From Roseibium aestuarii (GTDB taxonomy: Bacteria > Pseudomonadota > Alphaproteobacteria > Rhizobiales > Stappiaceae), in the NCBI RefSeq assembly GCF_008477545.1, contig NZ_VORA01000004.1, positions 124,001 to 188,000 of the forward strand: DNA of 64,000 bases, given 5' to 3'. The translations under genes were made by a program, and so were the position numbers. The notes under the pieces are model-generated. The model saw only the letters and a list, made by a program, of their open reading frames with translations. It was not told where the DNA came from and did no database searches. This document shows positions 6,738 through 10,996 of the stretch, piece by piece (position 1 is the stretch's first letter; the number at the start of each line of letters is the position of its first letter).

Positions 6738-8093
6738 TCAGCCGTAGACCAGCCTTGGCAGCCAAGTCACGATCTCGGGGAAGAGCATGCAGAGCACCAA
6801 CCCCATGACCTGCAGCCCGAGGAAGGGCAGGGCGGACTTGAAGATGTCCGACATGGGGATGTCGGCCGGGGCCACGCCGCGCAGATAGAAGAGCGCATAG
6901 CCGAAGGGCGGTGACAGGAAGCTCATCTGCATATTGACCAGGTAGAGCACCCCGAACCACAGCACCAGGTCGTCCGGGCTGTCGAGGCCGAAGGCCTGGG
7001 CGCCGAGCGCCTTGATGATCGGCACGAAGATCGGCACGCAGAGCAGCAGGATGCCGACCCAGTCCAGGAACATGCCGAGGATGATCAGCACGATCTGCAT
7101 GATGATCAGGATGCCCCAGGGGCCGAGGCCCGTGGCTTCCAGCGCCCCTTGCACGAACTGCTGGCCGCCCTCGAGCACGTAGAGCCCGACGAAGATCGTC
7201 GCGCCGAACATGATCCAGATCACCATGGCCGAGGCCTTGAGGGTGGTGATCGAGGCTTCCCGCAGGGTCTGCCAGTCGAGATTGCGGTGGATCGCCGCCA
7301 CGATGATGGCACCGAAGGTTCCGATGCCGGCGGCTTCCACAGGGGTCGCCACACCGGTGAAGATCACCCCCAGCACGATGGCGATCAGCGCGATCGGGGC
7401 GGACATGCCCGACATCAGGCGGATCTTCTCCCGGGTCGAGACGCGCTCCTCCAGCGGGATCGGCGGGCCCTTCTTCGGGTCGATGTAGCTCATCACGATC
7501 ACGTAGACGATATACATGCCCGACAGCAGCAGGCCGGGAACGACGGCGCCGATGAAGAGCTCGCCCACCGACTGTTCCGCCACCACCGCATAGATGATCG
7601 CCAGGATCGACGGCGGGATGAGGATGCCCAGCGTTCCGCCGGCCATGATCGATCCCATCGCGATCTTCGGGTCATAGCCGCGCTTGAGCATGGCGGGCAG
7701 GGCGATGATGCCCATGGTGACCACGGCCGCGCCGATCACGCCCACCATTGCCGCCAGAACGGTCGAGGCGATGATCGTCGCCGCCGCAAGGCCGCCCTTC
7801 ACGCCGCCCAGCACCTTGTAGATGACGTCGAACATCTCGTTGATGATGCCCGCTCGCTCCAGCATGGAGGCCATGAAGATGAAGAGCGGGATCGCCGAGA
7901 GTTGATAGTTGGTCATCAGCGGGAAGATGCGCGAGGGGACGATGTTGAGCGCCCTCTCGTCGCCGAGGATGAACAGGAAGACACACGCGAGCCCCCCCGT
8001 GACGAAGGCCAGCGGCAGGCCTGCCATGAGCAGGACGAGCAGCGAGCCGAACATGATGAGTGTCAGCCACTCGATTCCGATATCAAGTCCCAT
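6738..8093 (-). CDS. dctM: TRAP transporter large permease (DctM)
   Basis: The main membrane subunit of a tripartite ATP-independent periplasmic transporter, carrying the ion-coupled translocation path. The 451-residue protein is strongly hydrophobic with about a dozen membrane segments and DctM hallmarks such as AIPLFIFMASMLERAGI and GGTLGILIPPSI. It starts 4 bases after the DctQ-type gene ends, so the two are co-translated, and the binding protein gene precedes them. The likely substrate is an organic acid, judged only from the solute-binding protein. Confidence 0.93.
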   Translation of the reverse strand: MGLDIGIEWLTLIMFGSLLVLLMAGLPLAFVTGGLACVFLFILGDERALNIVPSRIFPLMTNYQLSAIPLFIFMASMLERAGIINEMFDVIYKVLGGVKGGLAAATIIASTVLAAMVGVIGAAVVTMGIIALPAMLKRGYDPKIAMGSIMAGGTLGILIPPSILAIIYAVVAEQSVGELFIGAVVPGLLLSGMYIVYVIVMSYIDPKKGPPIPLEERVSTREKIRLMSGMSAPIALIAIVLGVIFTGVATPVEAAGIGTFGAIIVAAIHRNLDWQTLREASITTLKASAMVIWIMFGATIFVGLYVLEGGQQFVQGALEATGLGPWGILIIMQIVLIILGMFLDWVGILLLCVPIFVPIIKALGAQAFGLDSPDDLVLWFGVLYLVNMQMSFLSPPFGYALFYLRGVAPADIPMSDIFKSALPFLGLQVMGLVLCMLFPEIVTWLPRLVYG

Positions 8094-8097
8094 CGGC

Positions 8098-9420
8098 TCA
8101 AGCCTTCTCCGTCAGCGCGCGGAGATCCTGCGCGAATTTCGAGATACCCTGCAGCACCAGCAGCAGGCCGCCCAGAACCATGACCCACTTCATGGGCCAC
8201 AGCGGCACTTCCCATTCGTTGAAGCTGATCTCGCCCCAGCGGATGTTCGGATCGGTCCACTGCGCCAGATTGAGCGAGGCGATCATGTCGCCGAAGCTCA
8301 TGGAGCCGCGGGCCCAGTCGGAGATTACGGAATTGCCGGTCGGCACGGCGATCGCGTCGAAGGCAAAGATCCACGACGTGACGAGCAGGGTGCCGGCGAA
8401 GATGAAGAAGAAGACCGAGGTCAGCAGGTCGACGAGCGCCTTGCGGCGCTTCGACAGCGGTGCATAGAAGATGTCCACCCGCACATGGGCTTCCGTCAGC
8501 GCCGCATAGGCCCCGGCGATCAGATACTGCATCCCGAACATGAGATACATGGCTTCATGGGCCCAGTTGGTCGGGCTGCCGAAGACATAGCGGCTCATGA
8601 CTTCGAAATAATAGACGATCACCGCGATCACCGCCCAGTAGCTGACGAACTCACCGCAATAAAGCGAGAGCTTGTCGAGCTTGCCCGTCCAGCCGGTCGA
8701 GACGAAGCGGCTGTCCTCCTGGCGTTCCGCCGCCTCGATTTCCTTGAGCTTCAGCTCCTCCGGCGTGAGCGCACGCTCGGGCGGAATGTTGTCATTGGCC
8801 CGGCGAACAAGCCCGGGAAGCAGGAAGATGTCGATCAGCACGCCGGCCATCAGCAGCCAGAAGGCGTATTTCGCAACATTCGACCACTTGGCCAGATCCG
8901 CCTCGCTGGTTTCCAGCAGGGGGCGGGCGGCCGTTAGGTCGCCTTCGGCCTCGCTCACCCGTTCCCGGCCCTGTTCGATGCGCTGTTCGGCACGGCGCAG
9001 GTCCCGGTCGGCCCGCCGCGCGGCCATGGATCCCTGTTCGGCGGCCTGAACGGCGGCCTGAAGCGACGGAAGGTCGGCCTCGGCGGTCTTCACCCGCTCG
9101 CTCTCGCGCTCCAGCACCCGCTCGGCCTGACGCACCAGATTGGCGTTGTCAGAATAGACGGACCGGGCGTCATGGCCCTGGGAATTGGCATAGAGAATGA
9201 CGATGAAGACCGGGATGTAGACCAACCCGATCATGCTTTTCACGTAAAGACGGTGAAGGCCGAGAATCCCGCCGGTCACCAGAATGAAATAGCCGAGCAC
9301 GAGCGAATAGCGCCGCTCTTTCGGCTTGGGCCGCTTGGCGAGACTGGCGGCAATGATCGGAAAGATGATCAGGCCGAGCCAGTAGGCCCAGTGCGGCAGG
9401 GTGAAATCGATATGAGGCAT
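8098..9420 (-). CDS. dctQ: TRAP small permease (DctQ) with TM2-like and coiled-coil N-terminal extension
   Basis: The small integral subunit of the TRAP transporter. DctQ proteins normally have about 160-200 residues; this one has 440. The DctQ four-helix domain occupies roughly residues 250-430 (with YVFGSPTNWAHEAMYLMFGM and EAHVRVDIFYAPLS). The extra part has a membrane segment at ~13-27, a TM2-like hairpin at ~40-78 containing GGILGLHRLYV, an Ala/Glu/Arg-rich coiled coil at ~95-185, and another membrane segment at ~190-212. No frameshift is visible and the frame is open from ATG 9420, so this is a true fusion. The extension's role is unknown; it could scaffold or regulate the transporter. 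Confidence 0.9.
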   Translation of the reverse strand: MPHIDFTLPHWAYWLGLIIFPIIAASLAKRPKPKERRYSLVLGYFILVTGGILGLHRLYVKSMIGLVYIPVFIVILYANSQGHDARSVYSDNANLVRQAERVLERESERVKTAEADLPSLQAAVQAAEQGSMAARRADRDLRRAEQRIEQGRERVSEAEGDLTAARPLLETSEADLAKWSNVAKYAFWLLMAGVLIDIFLLPGLVRRANDNIPPERALTPEELKLKEIEAAERQEDSRFVSTGWTGKLDKLSLYCGEFVSYWAVIAVIVYYFEVMSRYVFGSPTNWAHEAMYLMFGMQYLIAGAYAALTEAHVRVDIFYAPLSKRRKALVDLLTSVFFFIFAGTLLVTSWIFAFDAIAVPTGNSVISDWARGSMSFGDMIASLNLAQWTDPNIRWGEISFNEWEVPLWPMKWVMVLGGLLLVLQGISKFAQDLRALTEKA

Positions 9421-9531: not shown

Positions 9532-10638
9532 TCAGAGCTTGAGCTCGAGTCCTTCGACCAGCTCGGGCGAGACGTAGCCGAGCGACCCGGACATCATGTA
9601 GTCCAGCTGGATCTTGAAGACCCGGGCGCTGTCCTTGTCGCGGTTCGCGTAGTTGAACCAGATCGGCACGGCGACCTCGGTCATCAGCTCCACGTCGTCC
9701 TGGCTGAGGCGGGTGATCTCGGTGCCGTCGGCCTCGAACTTGGCCCAGGCTTCCTGGTCTGCCTTCTGGATCGCCGCGTGATGCATGTCGGAGTAGACGT
9801 GGGTTTCCATTTCCACGAACTGCTGCATCTGCGGGCTGAGCTTGTTCCAGGCGCCCATGCCCACGGTGATGTCCATGATGTCCACCGGCTGGTAGAGGGA
9901 CATGAAGCCCGGAGGGCCCATGGAGATGTATTTGGTCACCTGGGAGAAGCCGAGGGCGTAGTTCACCGCCGGGCCCACATAGTCGGCCACGTCGATGGTG
10001 CCCTTTTCCAGCGCCGGGAAGATTTCAGATCCCGGAAGAACGGTGGTTTCCGCGCCCAGCTCGCTGAAGACTTCGGCCACCATGCCGCCCGGCAGACGCA
10101 TCTTGCGGCCACGGAAGTCATCGATGGAGCGGATCGGCACCTTGGAGTGGATGATGTTCGGACCGTGATGCACGGGGCCGACGAAATGCATGCCCTGGGC
10201 CGCATAGAGCTCGCGGGCAATCTCGAGACCGCCCAGCCCGTAGTAGAAGACGTCGAACTCATGCGGGTTGCGCAGGCCCAGCGGGATCGAGGTCAGGAAG
10301 GTGGCGGCGGGAATGATCCCCTGTGCGTAGATGGTGAAGGGGTTCACCGCGTCCAGCACGCCGTTCTTCACCGCGTCGAAGAGCTGGAAGTCCCCCACCA
10401 CGTCATTGGCGCCGAAGGGCTGGAAGGCGAGTTCGCCCCCGGTCTTCTCGACGATGGTCGCACACCAGTCCTTGAAGATCTGGAGACCGGCGCCACCGGG
10501 CCAGCTGGTCTGGATCTTCCAGGTGGTCGTCTGCGCCTGTGCCGAGGCAATGTGCGGGGCGGCAAGGGTTGCAGCACCGGCGGCACCGGCGCCGGCAAGG
10601 CTCCGCAGAGCCTGTCTGCGCGTTGCAAGCTGTTTCAT
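9532..10638 (-). CDS. dctP: TRAP transporter substrate-binding protein (DctP family)
   Basis: Periplasmic receptor of the TRAP system. I chose ATG at 10638 because GGGAGG sits just upstream and the protein then begins with a twin-arginine-type signal (ATRRQALRSLAGAG ... SAQA, about residues 1-33); the frame stays open further upstream but that part has no signal-peptide logic. The 368-residue product resembles the 2-oxo-acid/lactate branch of DctP proteins (TakP-like), with WKIQTSWPGG near the mature N-terminus and KMRLPGGMVAEVFSELGA around the substrate Arg region. Substrate assignment is an inference. It is the first gene of the dctPQM operon. Confidence 0.9.
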   Translation of the reverse strand: MKQLATRRQALRSLAGAGAAGAATLAAPHIASAQAQTTTWKIQTSWPGGAGLQIFKDWCATIVEKTGGELAFQPFGANDVVGDFQLFDAVKNGVLDAVNPFTIYAQGIIPAATFLTSIPLGLRNPHEFDVFYYGLGGLEIARELYAAQGMHFVGPVHHGPNIIHSKVPIRSIDDFRGRKMRLPGGMVAEVFSELGAETTVLPGSEIFPALEKGTIDVADYVGPAVNYALGFSQVTKYISMGPPGFMSLYQPVDIMDITVGMGAWNKLSPQMQQFVEMETHVYSDMHHAAIQKADQEAWAKFEADGTEITRLSQDDVELMTEVAVPIWFNYANRDKDSARVFKIQLDYMMSGSLGYVSPELVEGLELKL

Positions 10639-10996
10639 GTTTTCCTCCCATTCGGCCAGGAAGGAGAAACGGCGGGCAGGTATTGCGGAACATGAACGCC
10701 CTCCGGTCCTCCAACCGTCGGATGTCGACATTCCCTGCCCAGTGATTGTTCTGGGTCGCCGTGCGCTCCTCCAAGCTCCGGCGGGACAATCACTTGAAGC
10801 CTCCCTAGCGTGAACCAGTCTACAGCAGTTGCTCCTCCTCGCAAGCGGCAGTCGGTTTTGAGACATCTTTGCTTTCAGGGAACAAATGCGCTTGGTATTA
10901 CTGTCGAAATCGCCAAGCCGTAACGGGATTGATGCGGCGGGCGGCTTGGCCGGGCAAGAGCCGGGGACCAGTCGAGAGACCATGGAAGGGGAGCAC
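10639..10996. other. Divergent intergenic region dctP / LprI-like gene
   Basis: About 360 bases between divergent genes. It must hold the promoters of both, but I recognise no clear promoter hexamers, operator or RNA element. An upstream in-frame extension of the plus-strand gene (from 10886) exists but lacks a ribosome-binding site. Confidence 0.5.

Follow-up and report, generated by a model that had tools for sequence, protein, structure and literature searches.

A TRAP small permease subunit of Roseibium aestuarii with an N-terminal TM2-type domain and a predicted coiled-coil hairpin

The protein described here is best compared with the small permease subunit DctQ (PF04290) of TRAP transporters, of which SiaQ is an example. 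In the cryo-EM account of SiaQM, both the N terminus and the C terminus of SiaQ lie in the cytoplasm; its authors propose that Q enlarges the scaffold, allowing SiaQM to function as a monomer, and predict contacts of both periplasmic loops of SiaQ with the P subunit (PMC9971032). The fused DctQM permeases and the TAXI-TRAP systems represent another enlargement of TRAP membrane subunits. The source that describes them reports that the binding protein TTHA0766 of Thermus thermophilus binds lactate and dimerises back to back, calls the effect of TRAP binding-protein dimerisation on the work with DctQM unclear, and treats the role of DctQ as not established (PMC5812351). Animal TM2 proteins, in turn, are described as having two transmembrane domains and an intracellular loop, and the molecular function of the TM2 domain in these proteins is called unknown (PMC8714088).

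The window analyzed here is a stretch of 64,000 nucleotides of Roseibium aestuarii (contig NZ_VORA01000004.1, positions 124,001 to 188,000). Its dctQ gene stands between dctP, located upstream, and dctM, located downstream. These neighbors, together with a core (residues 246-436) that scores over the PF04290 cut-off, are what the window DctQ shares with ordinary DctQ proteins. In contrast to the latter, the window protein adds in front of its core a helix with an LPHW motif, a TM2-type domain and a predicted coiled-coil hairpin, and the loop between its core helices 3 and 4 is longer. Whereas Q is joined to M in the fused DctQM permeases, Q and M are separate in the window and the addition is N-terminal to Q. 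The features are listed below with their coordinates in the window.

6738..8093, minus strand: dctM, large permease subunit, 451 amino acids (PF06808, 279.8 bits; TIGR00786, 313.7 bits)
8098..9420, minus strand: dctQ, 440 amino acids, with an LPHW helix, a TM2-type domain apparently split by a coiled-coil hairpin, and a DctQ core (open reading frame; PF04290, 68.9 bits)
9340..9399, minus strand: TM1, residues 8-27, with the LPHWxYW motif, shared with relatives that lack the TM2-type domain and coil (invariance in 81 rows)
9181..9309, minus strand: first part of the TM2-type domain, h1 with GGxxGxHRxY and h2, residues 38-80 (PF05154 in relatives)
8875..9180, minus strand: predicted coiled-coil hairpin between h2 and h3, residues 81-182, turn at 127-131 (3.5-residue period; AlphaFold2)
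8803..8874, minus strand: last part of the TM2-type domain, h3 (IDxFLLPGLVRR), residues 183-206, with the invariant D197 (h3 profile matches TM2 frames)
8686..8802, minus strand: acidic linker, residues 207-245, probably cytoplasmic and poorly conserved
8113..8685, minus strand: DctQ core, four hydrophobic helices, residues 246-436 (PF04290; 7qha_A, E 3.3e-4)
8236..8343, minus strand: extra stretch of 36 residues, 360-395, between DctQ helices 3 and 4, expected to be periplasmic (loop lengths)
9532..10644, minus strand: dctP, solute-binding protein, 370 amino acids, TTHA0766 (lactate-binding) type (PF03480, 143.6 bits; 2zzv_A, E 1.6e-115)

The reading that we favor, with a probability of roughly 0.4, is that a TM2-type domain and a coil were inserted into the DctQ of a TTHA0766-type transporter, and that the resulting hairpin is a periplasmic post that positions DctP. 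The TM2-type domain would have been inserted between an older N-terminal LPHW helix (N-out) and the four-helix DctQ core, and the coiled-coil hairpin would then have been inserted into the h2-h3 loop of the TM2-type domain. The TM2-type domain would enlarge the immobile scaffold that DctQ gives to DctM, and the rigid hairpin would stand as a post beside the docking face of DctP, capturing or orienting it. The anatomy of the extended DctQ is itself highly probable; the docking or positioning of DctP is put forward as a tentative mechanism.

The dctQ frame runs uninterrupted from an ATG at 9420 to a stop at 8098-8100 and encodes 440 amino acids. The domain search proposed in the preliminary description placed the C-terminal half of the protein over the curated PF04290 cut-off (68.9 bits against 28.3, best stretch residues 267-356), and PF04290 matched all 81 members of alignment A1. 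The core also matched the solved TRAP small permease 7qha_A (E 3.3e-4), and its hydropathy peaks lie at residues 251, 290, 329 and 405. DctQ is encoded at 19 places in the Roseibium genome (4.35 Mb, 21 contigs). Read from the first ATG, by which the starts of some of the longer proteins may be over-called, the other 18 DctQ proteins have 161-331 amino acids with a median of 182, confirming that the window DctQ is more than twice the usual size. Another enlarged DctQ of this genome (L165:448-1440, plus strand, on G000:C20) has 331 amino acids and a different N-terminal region of about 180 residues, for which Pfam gave nothing credible. A RYVFxSPT stretch of the window DctQ is present in yet another DctQ of the same genome (L153).

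Named loci were obtained by a contig scan with peptide patterns of the window DctQ, keeping the best 80 of 193 related places; built on this protein, the scan is biased towards near kin. The whole extended DctQ was encoded in 80 of the 80 kept loci, with lengths of 433-464 amino acids and identities of 59-79%. By their titles, these loci belong to Labrenzia/Roseibium, Stappia, many Rhodobacteraceae and Roseobacter genera, and a few Rhizobiaceae or Phyllobacteriaceae. Thirteen further genomes encode an extended DctQ of 363-406 amino acids, in which the coil is equal or shorter. The N-terminal half matched 14 of 289 genomes of the class, including the genome of the window itself, and 25 of 101 near relatives, about 21 of these with the whole module (the TM2-type domain and coil). 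Across the phylum, 41 of 398 genomes matched, only six with the whole module and the remainder partially. In a plasmid collection, 161 records matched DctQ, one of them over at least 80% of the query; this record, an unannotated Sinorhizobium plasmid, was also the single one that matched DctP at an E value of at most 1e-60.

These comparisons rule out a separate N-terminal gene read from an internal start, which had been considered at the outset, since each locus holds one uninterrupted frame and M1 and L8-P9-H10-W11 are invariant in 81 rows. A one-off fusion or an assembly error is likewise ruled out by the 80 kept loci and the 13 further genomes. The fusion of a TM2-like part to DctQ, a single frame that is intact in all 80 named loci, was thus correctly recognized from the first, and the extended DctQ is real and conserved and no local oddity. 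The order dctP-dctQ-dctM on one strand was found in 80/80 named loci and in 13/13 of the others, with 78-307 bases between dctP and dctQ in the named loci. Median identity to the window was 63% for DctQ, 89% for DctP and 88% for DctM in the named loci, and 38%, 73% and 78%, respectively, in the 13 others. When flanks were compared (at least 2 kb upstream in 73 and downstream in 75 of the 80 loci), no gene family beside the operon recurred in more than 10 of the 80. Searches of open-licence PMC by full-text words found no paper with a TM2 domain and a TRAP transporter together, none with DctQ, a TRAP transporter and a coiled coil together, and none on a long or extended DctQ; the anatomy of the window DctQ is found in none of the open-licence PMC papers searched.

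The hallmark of a TM2 domain is a glycine-rich GxxGxHRxY turn between two hydrophobic segments. Residues 50-60 of the window DctQ read GGILGLHRLYV, and in alignment A2, which holds 24 diverse rows, the invariant residues are L8, P9, H10, F20, P21, A24, Y44, G51, G54, H56, R57, Y59, S90 and D197, the last of which is also invariant in A1. The profile search on which the TM2 similarity had been made to depend gave a divided answer. For the full window protein, Pfam TM2 (PF05154) was unreported at an E value of up to 10, and the isolated window segment reached 18.6 bits (E 0.0023), below the cut-off of 27.9, so that the window protein is called TM2-type only through its orthologues. The orthologues did match, some of them over the cut-off. 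PF05154 was found at an E value of up to 10 in 76 of the 81 members of A1 (best E 6.2e-5), and at an E value of up to 1 in each of the 10 compared among the 13 other relatives (8.3e-7 to 0.011), among which L016 lies over the cut-off (29.6 bits) and the other nine lie below it. A PF05154 search of 142 genomes recovered six extended DctQ proteins; G079 (35.4 bits) and G016 (28.7 bits) score over the cut-off and the other four below it. The matches in A1 and in the other relatives support the TM2 relationship that had been read from the motif. A BatA match, seen in 36 of the 81 members (best E 5e-4) and presumably due to the first helix, was set aside as uninformative.

The closest counterparts of this part of the protein are stand-alone bacterial TM2 proteins (PF05154) with three helices, a grouping of our own, in which h3 ends in IDxFLIPG(M/L)VRR. 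They share with the window DctQ the GxxGxHRxY helix, h2, and an h3 with the Asp and the Leu/Ile-Pro. The third helix of one such protein (L115) reads WLLIDAFYIPALARKR, and the helix after the coil in the window DctQ reads VLIDIFLLPGLVRRAN. A profile of DctQ residues 183-212 was compared with 1363 open frames of TM2 loci, 23 of which are TM2 frames; it found eight distinct frames at an E value below 0.1, all eight of them TM2 frames (best E 2.6e-9 and 2e-8), with the main match 26-40 residues after HRxY. Because profile A2 includes h3 and had led to the loci of eight of the 23 stand-alone TM2 frames, the comparison was also made with the loci found through Pfam TM2 alone; there, 5 of 865 frames matched at an E value below 0.1, and all five were TM2 frames.

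Joining h3 to h1-h2 gave a consistent gain with profiles of the stand-alone proteins. With a profile of the 23 unselected rows, the joined segment of every one of the 94 sequences outscored all five versions with shuffled h3, and a profile of 10 rows picked by the h3 motif again placed joined above shuffled in 94/94. Median scores with the 23-row profile were 38.4 for the joined segment, 28.8 without h3, 25.4 with shuffled h3, and, with helix Q1 or Q3 in place of h3, 23.5 or 20.0, respectively. The Pfam TM2 model gained nothing from the addition of h3 (16.6 joined against 18.6 alone for the window, and lower in 3/3 pairs); it matched the joined segments only to position 40-42 of its 51. Collectively, these scores indicate that residues 38-80 and 183-206 together form a single TM2-type domain into which the coil is inserted. 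The further helix named in the preliminary description is present after the coil, but it appears to be the third helix of this same domain and no separate element. The stand-alone TM2 proteins have few or no charges between h2 and h3, whereas the window DctQ has a coil of about 100 residues at this place and is fused to DctQ. The third-helix motif IDxFLIP occurs in 10 of the 23 stand-alone bacterial TM2 frames (loci L183-L212 and L115-L127); in the comparisons made, the 51-position Pfam model did not reach this helix, and it may be short for such a subtype.

The location of the coil was considered from the orientation of SiaQ and from the distribution of charge. The cytoplasmic N terminus of SiaQ, together with the one helix that precedes the core in module-free relatives, implies that TM1 would run out-to-in and that the following stretch would be cytoplasmic; the module would then begin and end in the cytoplasm and cross the membrane an even number of times. 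Per sequence, the 81 long forms have on average 4.5 K+R in the 13 residues of loop A, 2.0 in the 8 residues of the HRxY loop and 2.2 in the 11 residues after TM4, against 1.2 in 16 and 1.5 in 13 residues on the two coil-proximal flanks. In the short forms the contrast is weaker, with 3.1 K+R in the 16 residues of the first coil-proximal flank. AlphaFold2 breaks h1 at residue 54. If h1 (residues 40-59) dips into the membrane without crossing it, and h2 and TM4 cross, the three positive loops would be inside and the coil periplasmic. The parity argument depends on an h1 of this kind, whereas the two transmembrane domains described for animal TM2 proteins (PMC8714088) speak for an h1 that crosses. 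In the latter case TM1 must flip, yet the connection of the coil to TM4 and the DctQ core would keep it on the periplasmic side. Among 10 stand-alone TM2 proteins, all 10 have K/R in the N flank and in the HRxY loop, and nine have at most one charge in the h2-h3 stretch; only four, in contrast, have a net positive charge over the six residues that follow h3, which weakens the charge argument. On balance, charge and parity would place the coil in the periplasm.

A periplasmic coil makes a link to the cytoskeleton, as suggested at first, unlikely: loop A, the HRxY loop and the residues that follow TM4 carry positive charge and DctQ is N-in, all of which points to the periplasmic side. It would follow from a different arrangement, with TM1, h1 and h2 crossing the membrane and TM4 not, that the coil is cytoplasmic and binds a cytoskeletal, metabolic or similar partner, and a weak match to the crescentin rod (E 0.062), of a kind typical of coiled coils, would suit such a role. 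However, only one hydropathy peak is higher than that of TM4 (2.25), TM4 is followed by basic residues and the N-in DctQ core, and the positive HRxY loop would end up outside, making a cytoplasmic coil most improbable.

The coil itself was recognized by its periodicity and by structure prediction. Of the periods tried, 3.5 residues carried the most power in the hydrophobicity of each arm, and AlphaFold2 predicted a helix at residues 63-126, a turn at 127-131 and a helix at 132-210, with pLDDT values of 84-95 in the coil blocks. The whole model had a mean pLDDT of 77.4 and a pTM of 0.60, with 45-85 in the blocks of the DctQ core, and the module modeled alone showed the same helices at a mean of 84.2. 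A charged coiled coil of about 90 residues had been expected; the period and the predicted helices bear out the coiled coil, while its length is closer to 100. The turn and the hairpin-like fold matches suggest that the arms pack antiparallel, as a two-stranded hairpin. Outside the membrane helices the arms measure 46 and 51 residues, or roughly 70 Å at 1.5 Å per residue. A fold search of the whole model against the PDB gave nothing at an E value of up to 0.001 and yielded coiled-coil and helical matches only, and residues 1-215 gave nothing at this threshold against the PDB and BFVD. Matches from VIA-align were long helical hairpins and coiled coils, with a best Z of 11.3 that is commonplace for such models; no TM2 structure was among the fold matches, which says nothing about the fold. 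Weak Pfam and NCBIfam matches of the coil (HAUS5, crescentin rod, ExoVII, SMC and others) were rejected as uninformative.

The length of the coil was followed through the span from S90 to D197. Of the 81 long forms, 72 have a span of 108 residues and the other nine one of 109-112. The span is 108 in 3/3 mid forms and 74 in 10/10 short forms; in eight further relatives it is 67, 68, 74 (four times), 89 or 108. Within the coil region, R86, S90, N94, R143 and W179 are invariant in 81/81, a stripe at R97, R101, R105 and R109 is K/R in 74-80 of 81, and E128 and S131 at the turn are conserved, as are alanines. The module may be an aid to folding or stability, with the TM2-type domain helping QM insertion or stability and the coil acting as a spacer of drifting length. 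The variation of the span from 67 to 112 between lineages is in line with this, as is the faster evolution of DctQ than of DctP and DctM; however, the near constancy of the span within lineages (108 in 72/81 long forms, 74 in 10/10 short forms) and the five residues invariant in all 81 sequences render it quite unlikely.

Coiled coils commonly self-associate, and this general property would favor an oligomerization or clustering device, in which neighboring hairpins pack as a periplasmic four-helix bundle that fixes the scaffold or forms arrays. The conservation of E128, S131 and the alanines is compatible with such packing, and a further anchor would fit the scaffold role proposed for DctQ (PMC9971032). 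Against this, a single chain already models as a confident two-stranded hairpin, a weak point since it comes from a single-chain model, and the best conserved stripes of the coil are arginines. We regard clustering, one of the roles suggested at first, as unlikely.

The partner binding protein bears most directly on the proposed post. The window DctP matched TTHA0766 (2zzv_A) over its full length (residues 8-368, E 1.6e-115) and, more distantly, TakP (2hzk, E 2e-24); the likeness to these two known systems concerns DctP, as both are binding proteins. Judged from DctP similarity alone, the window transporter would be of the TTHA0766 type, with lactate or another small carboxylate as substrate. 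Speaking against lactate, an ABC system is listed for lactic acid in Ruegeria pomeroyi (PMC9870897). Given that the loops of SiaQ are predicted to lie at the P subunit, a periplasmic hairpin and a longer Q loop would lie where DctP docks. The conserved arginine stripe of the coil and the constant dctP-dctQ-dctM order are further points in favor of the post. Two observations count against a docking post: DctP relatives that are 46-57% identical go with module-free DctQ, and DctQ, coil included, is less conserved than DctP and DctM. The first of these implies that the module is dispensable for such a DctP, and it weakens a strict link to dimeric binding proteins. It is doubtful that a coil hairpin from a captured TM2 domain holds a dimeric DctP on DctQM, with one protomer loading while the other delivers.

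The coil could also be a periplasmic sensor, or a signaling arm for the state of the binding protein or of the envelope. A DctP homologue 43% identical to that of the window adjoins an open reading frame resembling the TorS sensor (L147), which would speak for a signaling role; however, Pfam found no output domain in the window protein, none of the gene families beside the operon recurs in over 10 of the named loci (n = 80), and we consider a sensor arm very unlikely. The open reading frame in question (L147:3-1340, minus strand), which lies beside the DctP homologue (L147:1498-2646, minus strand) and is not a dctQ, has a TorS-sensor-like periplasmic domain whose match (E 9.9e-6, 25.7 bits) is just below the cut-off of 27. 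Its position suggests that such binding proteins can work with an all-helical periplasmic partner, and this DctP homologue is perhaps a TRAP-type binding protein used for sensing. At another locus, a divergent GntR/FCD regulator is encoded upstream of a dctP of the same family (L145:463-1221, minus strand; FCD 85.5 bits, GntR 71.1 bits), and L146 holds an open reading frame similar to this regulator.

Between the module and the core, the acidic linker has a net charge of about -6 over residues 216-241 in the long forms. The loop at residues 357-407 has 51 residues in the long forms and 15 in the mid forms, the short forms and L139. All 81 long forms have the additional 36 residues, whereas L139 lacks them despite its long coil, so that the lengthening of the coil and the growth of the loop look like separate events.

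The N-terminal helix is more widespread than the module. L8, P9, H10, W11 and Y13 are invariant in 81 rows, and a phylum search found DctQ proteins of 231-234 amino acids that matched through the first helix alone. The neighbors of DctP relatives were inspected in 12 of 398 phylum genomes (E value of at most 1e-60) and in 16 of 274 genomes of the class of G347 (E value of at most 1e-70). Of these 28 loci, 11 had a DctQ with the TM2 motif (L136-L139, L141, L142 and L167-L171) and 15 had a DctQ without TM2 motif and coil; at the remaining two (L140 and L147), no DctQ was seen beside the DctP relative. All 15 module-free DctQ proteins have PHWxYW near the N terminus and a single helix before the DctQ core.

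To place the origin of the module, a DctP tree of 48 rows was used, 32 with extended DctQ (including 12 of the more than 80 long forms) and 15 without the module. The label "short" in this tree covers S90-D197 spans of 67, 68, 74 and 89, and two distant paralogues of the Roseibium genome, with branches of 8.6 and 9.4 in a 50-row tree, were left out. One branch (99/98) split extended from non-extended DctQ, 32 against 15 rows, and all 200 bootstrap trees had a single change between the two states. In the 50-row tree, L007 fell among the extended rows, and the label "noext" had two changes and "short" three, with "long" and "mid" single. With the L147 DctP (43% identical) as the outside row, non-extended DctQ was paraphyletic, which favors one gain of the module. 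As the L147 branch is long and the 48-row tree carries a long-branch warning, it is likely, at the strength that such a tree allows, that the module was gained once rather than lost.

With the extended proteins, the TM2 domain acquires a definite position within a transporter whose architecture is known. Moreover, the grades of DctQ (no module, short coil, long coil), found with recognizably the same DctP and DctM families, amount to a natural experiment, in which deletion or swap can ask what DctQ adds. At five further loci (L174, L178, L179, L180 and L181), DctQ frames of 472-498 amino acids run off the end of the locus and are perhaps DctQ-DctM fusions that start with the PHW helix.
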